From the IMG/VR virus record IMGVR_UViG_3300033146_003359, positions 1 through 20,562 of that record: 20,562 bases of DNA; one strand, given 5' to 3'. Under the pieces are notes generated by a model, which was not told the origin of the DNA, did no database searches, and saw only the letters and a program-made list of their open reading frames with translations. The first letter of the stretch is position 1; each line of letters begins with the position of its first letter. Source of the stretch: a virus. Below, piece by piece: positions 1,824 through 19,332 of this stretch. Both the position numbers and the translations under genes were made by a program.

Positions 1824-3338
1824 ATGGTTATTGAAACAGGCAAATCAAAGAATCATATGTTTAAAACAAATAAGCCCAAATCTAATATAGTAAACAGGTT
1901 TTGGAGATTAAATCATTTGTATAAAATAATAGATAAGAGATGACAGTCTATTACATTCAAACTAAACGAAGCACAACTAAGTATTTATAGGTTAGAAAAA
2001 GAACATAACAAGATAATAATATTAAAGGCTAGGCAATTATGAATATCCACATACAAACTTATAAGCTGATTAGATAAGTCATTATTCTATCATAACAGAA
2101 CAATAATAATAACAGCACATAAACAAGAGAAACAACAAGAATTGTTCCAGAAAGTTAAATACGCTTTTGCGGAGTTACCACAAACAATAAAGTTAAAAGA
2201 TTGAAGGATATGGAAGAAACCAACACCAAGATATGACAGTGTAAATGAGTTATATTTCCAAAAGCTTAATTCAAGAATAAAAGTAAGTCTTGATAGTAGG
2301 AGCTGAACCCCCACAGATCTACATATAACAGAATTGGCATTTAAACCAGATGCCAAGAAAATGATGACTGGTACATTACCGTCTATCCCTAAATGATCCC
2401 CAATAACAATAGAAACAACAGCAAACGGTGCAAGTGGTTATTTTTATGAATTATGGAAAAAATTTGAAAACACAGATAAATGATTTCATTGTTTGTTTAT
2501 CCCACGGTATACTGATAAAGATTATACAATAAACACAAAAGAAAAGATAGTATTACCAGAGGGATTGGATCATCTTAATAAGTTAAATTTAACAAATTGA
2601 CAGAAATCACGGTATATTGATAAATATAATGAATTATGAAGAGAATGTTTTCAAGAATATCCAAGCACTCCTGACGAGGCGTTTCTTACAACTGGTGATA
2701 CTGTATTTAGCTTACAAATAGTAAAATCACTTCCTATTATATGATACAAAGAGGACTATAAATATGCTTGATTACGTATCTATAAACAACCTGACGAAGA
2801 AACCATGTATATATATGGTGTTGATACTGCTATGTGATGAATTTATTGAGATTATTCTACAATAAGTGTAAGAGATACAGATCTAAATTTATGTGCTTTT
2901 TATTACTGACATATCCCGCCTGACACATTGGCGGAGGTTATAGATCACTTATGGGAGATGTGATATATGTGCGAAAATATATGAATAGAAGTTAATAATA
3001 CTTGAATAGCCACAATAACTAGAGCAAAAGAGTATGTTTGGTATCAATATATATACGCAGAGACAACAATAGATAAAATATCTAATAGGAGGACAAGAAA
3101 AGTATGATGGAATACAAATCTAAAAACAAGGCCTAAAATGATAAGTGATTATGAAGAAGCTATAAGAAAATGATTAATAACACAAATAGATGAAAGATTA
3201 AGATCAGAGATGTATTCGTTTATATATAACGAGAAAAAGAGGCCAGAGGCACAAAAATGAAGCCATGATGATGCTATAATATGTGATTGTATTTGTTATC
3301 AGATGTCCATGCAATATACAACATGATTTATAGGATAG
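1824..3338 (+). CDS. terL: terminase large subunit (packaging ATPase and nuclease)
   Basis: This 504-aa protein is the motor that cuts phage DNA and pumps it into the prohead through the portal. The N-terminal ATPase has a Walker A-type motif KARQLGIST (68-76), a Walker B-like strand LHITELAF (166-173, acidic E170) and a coupling motif TIETTANG (195-202). The linker EYPSTPDEAF (278-287) is typical of this family. The C-terminal RNase H-like nuclease shows YGVDTAMGGIYGDYS (D334), IGIEVNNTG (E389) and SHDDAIIC (D482/D483), the expected metal-binding acidic set. Of 30 glycines I count 22 encoded by TGA and 8 by GGN; the Walker A glycine is TGA. The length is normal for the family. ATG at 1824 lies 7 bases after the upstream TAG. 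Confidence 0.95.
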
Positions 3339-3488
3339 CAAAAAAACATTGAAAAAACAAAAATAATAGTTATTATTATTATAATTTATAATTATTTACG
3401 ACAATTCACCAATTACTTGTGTCCGTTATTTTAGTTTTGCTACGGACGGCAAAAGTCTATATCGGTTGGACAACAATCATAGAAGATT
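3339..3488 (+). promoter_or_regulatory. portal leader: AT hairpin and copy 1 of the repeated element
   Basis: This 150-nt spacer separates terL from the portal gene. An all-A/T inverted repeat (AATAATA 3362-3368 with TATTATT 3371-3377) may be a weak transcript end for terL. The 38-nt structured element at 3421-3458 follows, then about 30 nt of leader to the portal ATG. Confidence 0.4.
3421..3458 (+). promoter_or_regulatory. structured leader element, copy 1 (before portal)
   Basis: This 38-nt element contains two interleaved inverted repeats: GTCCGT 3421-3426 with ACGGAC 3442-3447, and TTTTGC 3435-3440 with GCAAAA 3449-3454, followed by GTCTA. A second copy with identical spacing lies at 15564-15601. 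The two match at 34 of 38 positions, and all four differences fall outside the pairing segments. The portal ATG is 31 nt downstream of the element. The two helices overlap, so as RNA they would be mutually exclusive or form a tight pseudoknot. As DNA they could be paired operator half-sites. I do not recognise it as a known riboswitch class. Confidence 0.6.
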
Positions 3489-4802
3489 ATGCAACTAACA
3501 AAATTTCAGCAAAACAATCTAGTAACGCAATCTATATTATCCAGATTATGAGATAATACTTATCTTACTGATGAAAGTAATGATAATTTTTCTTATATTA
3601 AAGATAAATTTTTTTATGGTGAAACTACAGATAAGGTTAAGTTATTAAATACTGGTAGTTGATTGTTTGGTTCGATACAGTCTACAATATCTTTCTATGT
3701 ATGAGAGCCAGAGATAGAGACAAAACTAAATCTAGATTTATTTATACAAGACTTTCTAGCATTATGATTTACTACAATATGAATACAATGATTAGAGGGG
3801 AAGAGAGAAATACAATATTTGCCAGCAAAAAGATATTTCAAGCAATGAGATGCTGACAATATAATGCGAACATATATAAAAGAAAAAGAATGAAGTTATA
3901 CTAGCAACTATGATACATATGCTTTTATTAAAACATATGAAGTATGAATAACATATAATAGATTATACTTATTATCAAATAATTCATTAACAACAAGTAT
4001 GCAAGAGGTCCCACTTAATACTATATGGGAAACATCACATTTACAACCAATAGAGAAAACTTGATTAAAGACAAAGGCTATATTTGTTATAAAGAAAGAT
4101 GAAAATGAGCAATATCCAGTATCAGAATTTCAGACAATAAAAAATATAGTATATTCGATAGATAGAAAAATAGTAATGATGGACACACAATATTTACAAA
4201 ATATGGAGAGTTTTGTTTTATTAAAATGAATAAACTTACCAAAGAATTTATTGAAGGATTATATAGCTTGAAAAAGGTTAAATCTATCTCAATTAGGTAG
4301 AATAGTGCAATGAAATCAAGATTCAAGTATAGAGTTTATAAATAATATAAACAATTTAATAGGCGAAACAAAATGAACAATAAACGACCAAATAAGACAA
4401 ATAAGTTCAATGACAAAAATACCTATAGATTTCTTATGATTAGATAGTAAAGATGGTGCTATATGAGAATGATCTAGGACATTGAAGCATTGATCATTTA
4501 TAAAGAAGATACAATCAATAAGAGATATGTTTGATACTTATTTGCCAGATATACTTGGAGCGTTATGAGAATATGAACAGATAATGCGACCAGACATATT
4601 TGCTAAAAGCAATAAGGAGCTTGTAGAAGAGTTAAGTATAGCATTAGACAATAGAATAATAAGTAGATTGAATGCAATAAAACAGTACAATTGATTTAAT
4701 GATGATGAAGCAGAAAAAGAACTAGAGAATATAAATAAAGAAAAGGAAGAATCATTAGATATTTTAGATACAACAAATAATAATGTTGGTACAGATTGAT
4801 AA
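3489..4802 (+). CDS. portal protein
   Basis: This is a 437-aa protein in the usual place after terL. Portal proteins form the twelve-subunit ring at one capsid vertex through which DNA enters and to which the tail joins. The best marker is the C-terminal third: a short motif KIPIDFLGLDSKDGAIGEG (310-328) followed by SRTLKHGSFIKKIQSIRDMF. This matches the portal pattern of a proline-containing loop, a small-residue and Ser stretch, then long helices. The N-terminal half has alternating strands and helices with no membrane segment. The acidic C-terminal tail (DDEAEKELENINKEKEE) is typical of portals. Glycine is mostly TGA. ATG at 3489 follows the structured leader element; the 3' end overlaps the next small gene by 20 nt. 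Confidence 0.85.
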
Positions 4803-10099: not shown

Positions 10100-10130
10100 G
10101 GGAGGGTATTGGCTCCCTCCCTTTTATTAT
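10100..10130 (+). terminator. intrinsic terminator after the tube gene
   Basis: GGGAGGG 10100-10106 and CCCTCCC 10115-10121 form a perfect 7-bp G+C stem with an 8-nt loop, followed by TTTTATTAT. It lies 10 nt after the tube stop. This is the most convincing intrinsic terminator in the window. It would lower expression of the chaperone and tape measure relative to the tube. Confidence 0.88.
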
Positions 10131-10143
10131 AAATATATATAAT

Positions 10144-10809
10144 ATGTATGAAAACTTCCCCTTCACAAAAACTTTTATATATCGTATCAATGCAGATGAA
10201 TGATATATAGAGTTTGAGTATAAACAAGCAACAGCAATGGAAAGCATAGAGTTTTATAATAAATGACTAGAAGAACAACTTAAGGAAATAGCAAACATAA
10301 TAGAATGTTGAGTATTCCATTGATATAATAAAACTAATAAGCGATATAAAACTAAAAAGATGAATACATATAAGGTTAGATCAACAAAAGAGTCAATTCT
10401 TAATAAATATATAAAAAAAGAATGAGATAAACTTATAAATAAAATAACAGACACAAAACATTCTGTATATAAAAGTATTTACGAAGGGATACCAAAACCT
10501 ATTGGGAAAAGAAATAAAAGTATATTCTGATATGATTTAATGTTTATATGTAGTGAGTATAATATACCATGACCTAAACATTTATTAGAAAATTATACAT
10601 TGGAGCAAGTAGGTTACTTATGAGACTGATTAACATTTAAAAGCTATGAGTCTGATAAAAAAACACAGTGGATAAATGATAGAGCATTGTTTATTAAAAA
10701 ATGATGATTAGATCATAAACAAAAAGCACTACTAAAGAAACTTAAAGAGCAAAGGGCGAAAGATTTAAAAAAAGATTTAAAAAAAGATTTAGAAAATAAG
10801 AAAAACTAG
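10144..10809 (+). CDS. probable tail assembly chaperone
   Basis: This 221-aa protein lies between the tube and tape-measure genes, the standard place for the tail assembly chaperone (lambda gpG/gpGT analogue). The N-terminus INADEGYIEFEYKQA is followed by charged helices. A middle region has SIFGYDLMFICSEYNIPGP, where a short helix precedes a conserved-looking Pro. The C-terminus is a Lys-rich helix with KDLKK repeated (two 12-bp repeats near 10768-10791). Two canonical U UUA AAA slippery heptamers lie in that repeat, but the -1 frame stops after about ten codons, so no long GT product is evident. The TAG stop is followed immediately by the tape-measure ATG in the same frame. The function is from position. 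Confidence 0.6.
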
Positions 10810-13585: not shown

Positions 13586-14413
13586 ATGATCTGACAGACA
13601 TCATTAATAAAAACAGCAATACTATGATGATATAATAACCCAACAAGATGATTATCAGAATGAGATATAGTTTTTTGATGATTTAATTTACTTGATTGTT
13701 GAGAGATATACGCAGAGGACGGAAACTATGATGACATAAATAAATTTGATATATCTACATATAATGCACCAAGAATAGATTGATGATGATTATTATGATA
13801 TTATATTAATTGAAAACAAATAGACTTTCGTATCATATTAAGAGCGGATAATGAAACAGACTTAAACAATAAAATAGATGAAATGAAAAAAAAATTAGCA
13901 AAACCAAATCAAGACTTAAAAATAAAAATAAATTGAGAGTATAGAGTATGGGAAGCAAGTCTAAATAAGTTTGAAGTTAATAGGGATTTTTCAGAGGGAA
14001 CAATACAATCAAATATACAAATATGATTTATAGCAAATACTCATTGAGAGTCTAATAATTCATCTATAACAACATATAATAATGTTACTACTAATATAAA
14101 TATGGATATAGAGAACAACTGAACAACAAGTTGTGATTATATAATAACAATAGTATTTAGCCCAGGAAGTTCGTGAGTAGATAATATTATAATAGAAAAA
14201 GATTGATATGAACTAGAAATAAATCAATCTGTATCTCCATGAGATGTTATAGTAATAAATTGAATAGAAAAAGAAGTATTATATATGATGACAGAGATAG
14301 ATTATGATTGAGTGTTTAGACAATTGGAAGTTGGTAGCAATCCTATTATATTAAAGCTCAATTGAAGCCCTGTCTGTACTGTAAGTGTCGTATTCAATGA
14401 AAACTATTTATAG
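13586..14413 (+). CDS. distal tail protein (Dit-like)
   Basis: This 275-aa protein follows the tape measure, as distal tail proteins do; they form the ring joining the tube to the tip. The N-terminus has a strand-rich ring domain (NAPRIDGGGLLGYYINGKQI, DFRIILRADNETDLNNKIDE), the usual 'G..I...I.......L......L' layout in which the helix of a Dit contains DELKK-like residues (KIDEMKKKLAKP). A second beta-rich domain (galectin-like) contains TTSCDYIITIVFSPGSSG and ends NPIILKLNGSPVCTVSVVF, the typical 'n.i.l..N...v.v.f...y' close. Its TAG stop is followed in frame by TAA inside a tandem repeat. Confidence 0.82.
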
Positions 14414-14467
14414 TAAGTAGTTTATAGTAAGTAGTTTATAGTAAGTAGTTTATAGTAAGTAGTTTAT
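14407..14467 (+). repeat. 14-bp tandem repeat, about 4.4 copies
   Basis: The unit TTTATAGTAAGTAG is repeated at 14407-14420, 14421-14434, 14435-14448 and 14449-14462, then a partial TTTAT. The copies are identical. The first unit contains the stop codon of the distal tail gene, with TAA directly in frame after TAG. Since 14 is not a multiple of 3, the array puts TAG/TAA stops in all three forward frames. Confidence 0.95.
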
Positions 14468-14506
14468 CAAATATATTATTTATATATTTATAATAAAATT
14501 ATATTT

Positions 14507-15529: not shown

Positions 15530-15563
15530 ATATTTTATCAATATATATATCAATAATATTTGA

Positions 15564-15601
15564 GTCCGTTAATTTAATTTTGCCACGGACAGCAAAAGTC
15601 T
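15564..15601 (+). promoter_or_regulatory. structured leader element, copy 2 (before tail fibre)
   Basis: This is the second copy of the 38-nt element at 3421-3458. GTCCGT 15564-15569 pairs with ACGGAC 15585-15590, and TTTTGC 15578-15583 with GCAAAA 15592-15597, then GTCTA. All internal distances equal those of copy 1. The fibre ATG is only 13 nt after the element ends, against 31 nt for copy 1. It lies in the 84-nt spacer between the hub and the fibre gene. Confidence 0.6.
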
Positions 15602-15613
15602 AATATAAGATAT

Positions 15614-17623
15614 ATGGCTTTTGAAAAGTATAATATAGAAAACTTAGCTAGTGGTGTATTAAATGCCTCAATTTCAAGTACAGATACAACTGTTGTTCTG
15701 AATTCATGACAATGAGACCTATTCCCCACATCAAATTTTTTTATAAAAATAGAACAATTAGATAGTACAAGTGTATTAGAAATAAAACCAGTATTAAAAA
15801 GAGAAGTAATGTTGGTTGCTGTTAGGGTATGAGATATATTAACAGTTTCAAGATGACAAGATTTTTGCCCAGTAAGTGATACAGCAACAACACAAACAAA
15901 TACACATCTATCTTTTGATGCGTGAGATGTTATAACACAAGTATTCACGGCAAAACAGATAGAAGATATACAAGATGAAATAACAGATATTGAGAATATA
16001 CAATTACCTTTAAAGCTAGATATAACAGATTATATAACAAATGCTAAATTATATTCTGATAGTACAACATGAACAGATGCTTATCAAATAACATTATCAG
16101 ATGTTACAGCGTATAATGATTGAATGAATGTATATTTTAAAACAGATGTAGCAAATAACGCAGATGCGACATTAGAAATAAACGCATTATGACCTAAATC
16201 TATATTAAAATTTAATGATAGGCCATTAGAAACATGAGATATTGAAGCTTGAATGATAGTACATTGTGCATTTAATTCTACTGATGATACTTGGGAAGTT
16301 TTAAGTACAATGGCCGATTATAGTAATAATGTAGAGGTTGATAGATTCAGTAGAATGGTTACATTATGAGAAGATATCACTGCTTGAGACTGAAAATGAT
16401 CAGTATTTTATGGTAGTTGAATATTAGATACAGAAAAAACCATACAAACAATATGATGATCTGATTTAAATGTGTGAGATTCAACATCAAGACAAAAGTC
16501 ATGATTTATATTTACTCCTGATAGTGATTGACTTATAGATATATTGAAGTCATTTGAATTAAATATAAAAAAGGTATGAAGCCCCACAGATAATATACAA
16601 TTTAATTTATATGAATCAGATAAAACAACGCCTGTAGCTTGATTTTCACAACAAATAATATCATGATCTACAATAACAACTTCTTATATAAAGTATAATA
16701 TAGATTGACAAGATGTAAGTGTTATAGCATGAACAACATATTTTTTGGAGATATCAAGAAGCTGAGTATTAGACGCTTCAAATTATTATCAAATAGAGCA
16801 GGCAGGTGCAGATATTATTGCCAATTATTGATTATCAGAATATAATTGAACAACACGAACTGATAGTACAAATGATATATACTTTTATGTGCAATATTGA
16901 AAAAACACAGAAACAAACAAGGTATATTTATCAGACATAAGATATGAATACACAAACAAATCAGATTGAATAGTAATACAAACGTGACTAGCTTGAGAGA
17001 GTAAAAAACTTGTATTTTGATGAATACTAACACAATCATTAGTTAGTCCTGTTGATGAATTTTTTCTAAATAATAATAGTCTAGCTACTAGATGAGATTT
17101 CAGCAATACAAGACCAATATTACAATATCCAAGACCTATATGACAAGCTAAAAGCACAACAGAAATACAATTAATGATAAATGATGTAAATTCTTGTAAT
17201 ACATATCCTCAATATTGAATTTGTAGTTGAGTAGATAATAAATATTTAACATCTACAAATTCTGTCACATCTAGTGCAACAAATGTATATTTTGAAGTTA
17301 GTAGAATGATAGTATGACATATAAGTGACTATAATTGAAGTAGATTCATAATGACAATATGAGCTAGAGCTGAAATAATGAGTTCTAGTGGATGACGTAG
17401 GACTAGAATAAAAGTTGAAGTCAATTGAGTACAGGTATGAACAGAACGAACAACATCTACTAGTTGGGTCGAAGTTGTTATGCCGATAGTGGTAGAAGAA
17501 TGAGATGAGGTTGTGTTCTACGTTAGATCTGAGAGTGCGTTTTCTAATTGATCTGCAAAGGATTGTGAGTTGTCTTATGATTACGACTTCTTTTGAGATG
17601 ATGAGTGAGTAGTTATATTATAA
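15614..17623 (+). CDS. tail fibre / receptor-binding protein, 669 aa
   Basis: This long, strand-rich protein follows the hub. The N-terminal 130 residues have the common tail-attachment layout: ENLASGVLNASISSTDTTVV (9-28), GQGDLFP, KREVMLVAVRVGDILTVSRG (62-81), and TAKQIEDIQDEITDIEN (112-128) as a short linking helix. A second module (about 138-232) contains AYQITLSDVTAYNDGMNVYF and DDTWEVLS, as found in many fibre proteins. The middle resembles beta-sandwich units (SGFIFTPDSDGLID, TTYFLEISRSG). The C-terminal part (YFEVSRMIVGHISDYNG to YDYDFFGDDEG) could be the receptor-binding head. I count 4 GGN glycines against dozens of TGA. It starts 13 nt after element copy 2. Confidence 0.82.
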
Positions 17624-18070: not shown

Positions 18071-18319
18071 ATGGCAACAAAAGTAATAACTTTAGTAGGT
18101 GGTATGTGGGAGAAAATAAACTACGATGATACAAAAAGTTCTGATGGCTATATATTCCGAGTAGACACATGAGTTGCGTTTGCTGAAAAAGAATCACCTG
18201 CGTGAGATGAAAGTATACCAATACCTGCTAATACTAAACTTAAATTCAAAAAGCCTAAATGATTCTATCTTAACGGTACAGCATGAACACAAGTATTTTT
18301 ATCACCATTTGATAAATAA
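18071..18319 (+). CDS. 82-aa structural module, paralogous to the N-terminus of its neighbour
   Basis: ATG at 18071 gives 82 residues to TAA 18317-18319, whose last base starts the next ATG (TAATG). It is a small beta-rich protein (TKVITLVGGMWEKINYDDT, ESIPIPANTKLKF, AGTQVFLSPFDK). It aligns without gaps to residues 1-81 of the following protein, with about 27 identities in 81 (TK.ITL, W..I, DT, DE.IP, GT, L.PFD). The module is therefore duplicated, once alone and once fused. The role is probably a structural or fibre-tip attachment unit. I choose this ATG over the 18063 ATG, which stops after seven codons. Confidence 0.72.
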
Positions 18320-19332
18320 TGATTACAAAGACAATAACATTATCGACTACAGATTGGTTGCATATCTCATTTATGGATACTAGAGATGCCAACTGATTTG
18401 TATTTTGGGCTAATGCTTGAATAGAATTTACTGATAGGGCTATGCCAAATGCTGACGAAGTAATACCACTATCACAAGATAGTATGTATTGATTCGATGC
18501 ACCACAAGATATACGAGTTAGGGGTCCTATATGAACAGAAATATATTTATGACCTTTTGACTCTGTCCCATGAAGTGGAGGTTGAGGTTGAAGTGGTAGT
18601 TGTACATTTTCTTGAGTATATCATCAGCCAAGTTGATTCGTTGCATGAACAACATGCCAAGAATGGATAGATCTACATTTCCCTAGTACTCCTCCTACAG
18701 TCGATATTAGGTGAACTGATTATGCTTTCTGATTATATGAGGTATGACAGATACTAACAACACCTTTAATAGAATGACGTTGACACTTATGAGCTAATCC
18801 TGTTTGATTATTAACAAATCTAGATATAGCTCCTATATGATTTACACAAACCAATCCAACAGCAAATACTCGATATTGAAATAATGATGCAAATTTAACA
18901 ATAATATTATGAACAACACAGACATATACTGCTACAATACAAGACGATCAATCTAGAAGTTGAACAGCAAGTTGAAGTTATACATGAACATTCCCTTATT
19001 ATGGGACATCTGTAGATATTACAACATTGACTAAACAAATATTATCTGATATATGAAGCACATATTTTCAAGTAGATATGGTTGCAGAAACAGGATGAGA
19101 TAAATACAAAGCCGATTTTGAGACATCCAACATAACAATAACTTGAGTTATGTTCTATAATACTGTATCTAGTAATTGGGAATGGATGTGATGAAGTAAA
19201 GCGAATAGTCTAACTCTGCGAACTACAAGTGCAGTAACACATACAGTACAAGGTAATATAACTAACTATACAAGATACACACATAATTGAGTAGATGGTT
19301 GAGCATTATTAACTCGCTTTTATACTAATTAA
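18319..19332 (+). CDS. fibre-region structural protein, 337 aa
   Basis: The start overlaps the stop of the 82-aa gene. Residues 1-81 are a paralogue of that protein. A Gly/Ser linker (84-94, PGSGGGGGSGS, mixing TGA, GGA and GGT) leads to a beta-rich body. It holds VDIRGTDYAFGLYEVGQILT, LIEGRGHLGANPVGLLTNL and TYTATIQDDQSRSGTASGS, like the repeated strand units of phage appendage proteins. The C-terminal half (TFPYYGTSVDITTLTKQIL, then VMFYNTVSSNWEWMGG) is a second beta domain. The surrounding fibre genes suggest it is exposed on the tail tip or capsid and may contact the host. Confidence 0.72.

Follow-up and report, generated by a model that had tools for sequence, protein, structure and literature searches.

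A candidate leader pseudoknot kept in fold rather than in letters in two phages that read TGA as glycine

The pseudoknot of the bacteriophage T4 gene 32 mRNA has a short first loop and a long last loop. Lying at the 5' side of its operator, it is where the repressor docks first, before going on to cover the A/U-rich region of the start (PMC535899). The candidate elements reported here lie in phage mRNA leaders, as do the T4 and RB69 gene 32 operators, and may share with them a short 5' pseudoknot (~28 nt) ahead of a less structured, A/U-rich stretch up to the start codon, as well as recognition of structure with a relaxed sequence requirement (PMC535899). The present elements differ in preceding portal and tail-fibre-like genes, not the gene of a single-strand binding protein, and in being present in two copies per genome; the gap to the start codon is 16-34 nt, whereas the unstructured stretch of RB69 runs from -1 to -45 (PMC535899). 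In contrast with the T4 fold, it is the first loop (L1) that is long, at 8-12 nt, and the last linker that is short, at 1-2 nt. The H-type preQ1-I, SAM-II and SAM/SAH riboswitches likewise have small pseudoknots in the leader, close to the start codon; our elements differ from them in having no ligand-binding letters conserved between phages and no Rfam match. The exoribonuclease-resistant RNAs of flaviviruses and plant viruses are alike in idea, being compact pseudoknots that act as a roadblock by shape; these adopt a ring fold with conserved core letters, whereas the elements described here are without a conserved core and belong to a bacterial setting. The put RNAs of phage HK022, one at each of two promoters, are also RNA elements near the 5' end of phage transcripts, but are sequence-conserved, simple stem-loops rather than an interleaved fold.

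The window, i.e. the whole stretch of DNA analysed, is the entire IMG/VR record IMGVR_UViG_3300033146_003359 (20,562 bases, G+C 28.7%). Its main genes all lie on the + strand and contain 337 in-frame TGA codons, TGA (normally a stop) being read as glycine (table 25); their order is that of the late genes of a siphovirus-type phage, i.e. small and large terminase, portal, SU10-type capsid, tape measure, Dit and a tail-fibre-like gene. Phages with the TGA-glycine code have been reported for Gracilibacteria and Absconditabacteria (PMC10746230), and from the code we infer recoded Candidate Phyla Radiation bacteria as hosts. The features relevant to the following are:

3349..3392, + strand: promoter-like stretch 5' of copy 1, by consensus match alone (TTGAAA-16-TATTAT at 3349-3376; TATAAT at 3380 and 3387)
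3421..3426, + strand: copy 1, 5' strand of stem P2, GTCCGT
3427..3434, + strand: copy 1, loop L1, TATTTTAG, A/U-rich, as is L1 of all four elements of the two phages
3435..3440, + strand: copy 1, 5' strand of stem S2, TTTTGC
3442..3447, + strand: copy 1, 3' strand of P2, ACGGAC, inside the 8-nt loop of S2
3449..3454, + strand: copy 1, 3' strand of S2, GCAAAA, with the portal ATG 34 nt downstream
3489..4802, + strand: portal gene (table 25; ATG at 3489; PHROG portal family phrog_533, E 1.2e-7), copy 1 in its leader
15564..15569, + strand: copy 2, 5' strand of P2, GTCCGT
15570..15577, + strand: copy 2, loop L1, TAATTTAA
15578..15583, + strand: copy 2, 5' strand of S2, TTTTGC
15585..15590, + strand: copy 2, 3' strand of P2, ACGGAC
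15592..15597, + strand: copy 2, 3' strand of S2, GCAAAA, with the ATG 16 nt downstream
15593..15623, + strand: possible competing hairpin CAAAAGTC/GGCTTTTG, which spans the ribosome landing region and the start codon and excludes S2 of copy 2
15614..17623, + strand: tail/tail-fibre-like gene (table 25; ATG at 15614; PHROG tail families phrog_4900 and phrog_8469), copy 2 in its leader

The first-pass annotation of the window had described a 38-nt element with interleaved inverted repeats, the two copies of which differ solely in the gaps between paired strands and lie in gene leaders. Recounting from the sequence bears this out: the copies at 3421-3458 (GTCCGT TATTTTAG TTTTGC T ACGGAC G GCAAAA GTCT) and 15564-15601 (GTCCGT TAATTTAA TTTTGC C ACGGAC A GCAAAA GTCT) are identical at 34/38 positions, the differing positions (9, 14, 21 and 28 of the element) all fall in gaps, both helices are intact in both copies, and both copies are intergenic, 5' of the portal gene and of the tail/tail-fibre-like gene, respectively. 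By counting, the probability that all four differences lie within the 14 gap columns is 0.014. The 38-nt match is real, but the repeat extends further than was first described, from 3414-3459 and from 15557-15602, with 40/46 positions identical; this is the top ungapped 46-nt repeat of the record, three dinucleotide shuffles of which gave 31, 32 and 35. The two-stem part occupies 3421-3454 and 15564-15597, and the whole record holds these two copies only. Nested folding of a longer piece of the copy 1 leader prefers other structures.

Relatives were sought via conserved phage protein motifs with glycine encoded by in-frame TGA. Searching with the capsid motif GEYTLE-V/I/M-K returned a single contig, IMGVR_UViG_3300033146_001578 (19,420 bases, hereafter G383), which also reads TGA as glycine and is syntenic with the window, with identities of 65% for the small terminase, 49% for the portal, 56% for the capsid, 48% for Dit and 48% for the N-terminal part of the fibre-like protein (residues 1-346 of the window protein). 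A capsid alignment scan again gave G383 alone, and protein scans with the portal, the terminase and a single-sequence capsid gave nothing useful. The terminase motif with in-frame TGA yielded more distant relatives (L007 and L013, 41-43% identity), in the scored leaders of which the element is absent, and, in genome contigs, a single weak terminase match (L014). Among the genomes drawn from the phylum of a Daviesbacteria contig, a search for hosts that use the code of the window gave none. An exact scan of IMG/VR, in a form from which records nearest to the window may be absent, gave no further copies of the full element pattern; a shorter pattern, ACGGACNGCAAAAGTCTA, gave two matches there, both rejected as unrelated chance. 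The earlier annotation had recognised no known class; Rfam covariance models gave no matches to the elements of the window or of G383, even at permissive E-values.

The interleaved two-stem fold is present in the portal and fibre leaders of both phages, at orthologous positions and with identical strand order. The G383 elements read GGTCGT-AAAAGTTTA-GCTCAA-G-GCGACT-CA-TTGGGC (portal) and GGCTGT-AAAATATTTAAA-CAACT-A-ACAGCT-C-GGTTG (fibre), so that the common fold comprises a 6-bp P2, a 5-6-bp S2, an L1 of 8-12 nt, a 1-nt junction between S2 and P2 and a last linker of 1-2 nt. All 47 pairs over the four elements are standard or G-U, with zero mismatches. The compensatory changes that the first-pass annotation had proposed looking for are evident: P2 pairs 2, 3 and 4 (3/6) are changed on both sides across the four elements, all S2 pairs differ between the window and G383, and 4/5 comparable S2 pairs differ between the two G383 leaders, with pairing kept throughout. 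This is the opposite of the pattern named there as refuting the proposal, i.e. letters kept with pairing broken, or copies away from leaders. The same place and topology in G383, with changed letters, probably reflect selection on RNA structure.

Statistical support was sought by dinucleotide shuffling of the 100-nt leaders. The two-stem score was reached in 1/20,000 shuffles for copy 1, 0/20,000 for copy 2, 35/20,000 for the G383 portal leader (p 0.002) and 202/20,000 for the G383 fibre leader (p 0.010), the last being modest support when taken alone. The architecture search leaves some freedom in linker lengths and allows G-U pairs; with the linkers fixed at 1 and 1-2 nt, the counts become 0, 0, 14 and 46 of 20,000, respectively (p 0.0007 and 0.0023 for the G383 portal and fibre leaders). 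When the 43 leaders of the window and G383 were ranked together, the four elements took ranks 1, 2, 5 and 6, ranks 3 and 4 being intrinsic terminators that precede a single orthologous gene. The sample comprises two phages and four elements; the window copies share their stem letters and are thus counted as one independent observation. The G383 fibre leader (L036 8703-8767) has in addition a 9-bp outer stem, AGTAAATAG/CTATTTACT, which encloses the pseudoknot and ends 2 nt before the ATG (p 0.008); the p values of 0.17-0.71 for such a stem in the other three leaders imply that it is not part of the common fold.

The topology is that of an H-type pseudoknot, with loop lengths reversed on the sense strand: 8-12, 1 and 1-2 nt rather than the classical short first and longer last loop. 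The fold is best viewed as hairpin S2, whose loop of 8-9 nt contributes six bases to P2 by pairing with a strand that lies 8-12 nt upstream of S2. A single nucleotide can span the deep groove of a 6-bp helix of A-form geometry, as in kissing loops. On these grounds, the strain predicted by the first-pass annotation can be relieved by stacking of S2 onto the 3' end of the P2 loop strand, leaving one nucleotide to cross the deep groove; the pseudoknot itself is supported by our analyses, but its strain was overstated, applying only to the opposite stacking. Because reversed interleaving gives the classical H-type loop lengths (1, 1 and 8-12 nt), an antisense RNA was worth considering, but was set aside, as five pairs in G383 that are G-U on the sense strand would turn into C-A mismatches if the opposite strand, or DNA, were the active form, and the main genes are on the + strand. 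The search itself permitted G-U pairs, which makes them no more than a moderate argument as to strand; from the sequences, action as a sense-strand RNA is favoured.

Each element is probably downstream of a promoter, as judged from sequence motifs. The presumed start site from the promoter-like stretch at 3349..3392 lies ~20-40 nt before copy 1, consensus matches of this type in the AT-rich window being not commoner than in shuffles of the record. Just upstream, at the place that corresponds to the G383 block described next, copy 1 has AAAAAAACATT, which is common to the G383 leaders. In G383, a 14-nt block, CATTTTACTTTTGA, which holds the -35 of TTTACT-16-TATAAT, occurs exactly twice, each time just 5' of an element, and is followed in both leaders by TTATAATT and AATTGAT; P2 there starts ~14-15 nt past the presumed transcription start, as read from the sequence. 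The gap from S2 to the ATG is 34 nt (copy 1), 16 nt (copy 2) and 20 and 21 nt (G383). By position the elements fit a comparison with the gene 32 operator, but helices that would compete are predicted in the window leaders, as is an outer stem in the G383 fibre leader. No Shine-Dalgarno sequence is evident in the listed leaders of the window and G383, which agrees with the placing of Absconditabacteria genomes among 'SD-scarce' organisms (PMC10783764).

On balance, we favour the view that the elements act in cis, as RNA pseudoknots in the 5' leaders of late mRNAs, and most likely set translation initiation; covariation between the sequences points to the fold, and the role is proposed from there. 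The element would be placed downstream of the promoter and ahead of the ribosome landing region, close to the 5' border of the 30S site, on mRNAs without a Shine-Dalgarno sequence, and would be recognised by shape rather than by letters. It may set the translation start of the promoter-proximal gene by holding an A/U-rich landing site open or, by analogy with the T4 gene 32 operator, may be where a protein first docks before covering the landing site. A bolder form of the proposal, that such leaders constitute a sequence-free, shape-only class of pseudoknots in TGA-glycine phages, replacing the Shine-Dalgarno sequence in guiding the ribosome to promoter-proximal late genes, seems to us improbable. 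Since almost no letters are common to the two phages, sequence-similarity searches cannot find this structured RNA; it was revealed by synteny and topology. For phages of recoded Candidate Phyla Radiation bacteria (the host suggested by the code), it is a concrete candidate for a regulatory element, in a setting where little is understood of how start codons are chosen when no Shine-Dalgarno sequence is present; it also predicts that related phages hide more such leaders.

The nearest alternative, which could coexist with a role in translation, is that the pseudoknot is a 5' roadblock to mRNA decay, blocking 5'-to-3' degradation (RNase J type) or removal of the 5' pyrophosphate and so giving long-lived late mRNAs. 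We consider this possible, though unlikely as the main role: it would account for the retention of structure alone and for the presence of an element at both presumed promoters, close to the presumed start in G383, but the presumed 5' end may be 20-40 nt from copy 1, and a stabiliser does not require the start codon to lie at a similar distance each time (16-21 nt in 3/4 elements). We give less credence to a bistable leader switch, as raised by the first-pass annotation, in which a helix formed with the start-codon region competes with S2, such that pseudoknot and start-codon hairpin are alternative states. Competing 8-bp partners are indeed present in both window leaders, CAAAAGTC/GGCTTTTG over the fibre-like start codon for copy 2 (p 0.0055 versus downstream shuffles) and GTTTTGCT/AGCAAAAC at +19 in the coding sequence for copy 1 (p 0.0135), each being one of eight tests made; these hint at a switch, but they pair different S2 strands, there is no conserved ligand pocket, and neither G383 leader has a competing helix, so that any switch would be no more than a local addition in the window.

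The first-pass annotation had also weighed an RNA structure against paired operator or promoter sites in DNA. The two near-identical window copies, with perfect inverted repeats and a probable promoter nearby, could indeed be operator or activator sites, or a phage promoter recognised as double-stranded DNA, but a DNA-binding protein is expected to conserve letters, whereas in G383 the letters are replaced while position and RNA pairing, including G-U, stay; this supports the RNA-pseudoknot branch of that reading and disfavours the DNA branch, which, with the copy 2 site ending 16 nt before the ATG, we think very unlikely. Chance, i.e. a recent duplication in the window combined with AT-rich look-alikes in G383, draws on the use of a single relative and on the freedom in linker length, but each of the two G383 leaders independently scores a low p value, with or without fixed linkers, making this explanation still less probable. 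Least probable in our view is transcription antitermination by an RNA element at the head of late operons: as with HK022 put, the elements are 5'-proximal at both presumed late promoters, and an intrinsic terminator lies downstream at 10100-10121, but put-type RNAs conserve their letters, which are free here.

Several further features of the two phages were observed. Strong intrinsic terminators are found at orthologous positions, at 10100-10121 in the window (GGGAGGG-8 nt-CCCTCCC-TTTT) and 10307-10328 of the G383 contig (L039 808-829; GAGGGGC-8 nt-GTCCCTC-TTTT), in both cases following the presumed major tail protein gene and ahead of the next one. The 8-nt loop of each is in addition able to pair with a strand further upstream, in part through weak pairs. 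The large terminases (window 1824-3338, G383 2243-3715) are similar from residue 260 onward only, with no detectable similarity between their N-terminal (ATPase) halves, which, given the similarity of the flanking genes, suggests a module swap. Immediately 3' of the Dit gene, the window has a 14-nt tandem repeat, TTTATAGTAAGTAG, in about four copies (14407-14476). At 18071-19332, two adjoining genes encode proteins with like N-termini (MATKVITLVGG... and MITKTITLSTTDW...); the two are adjacent in G383 as well and have the appearance of a tandemly duplicated tail-associated domain.
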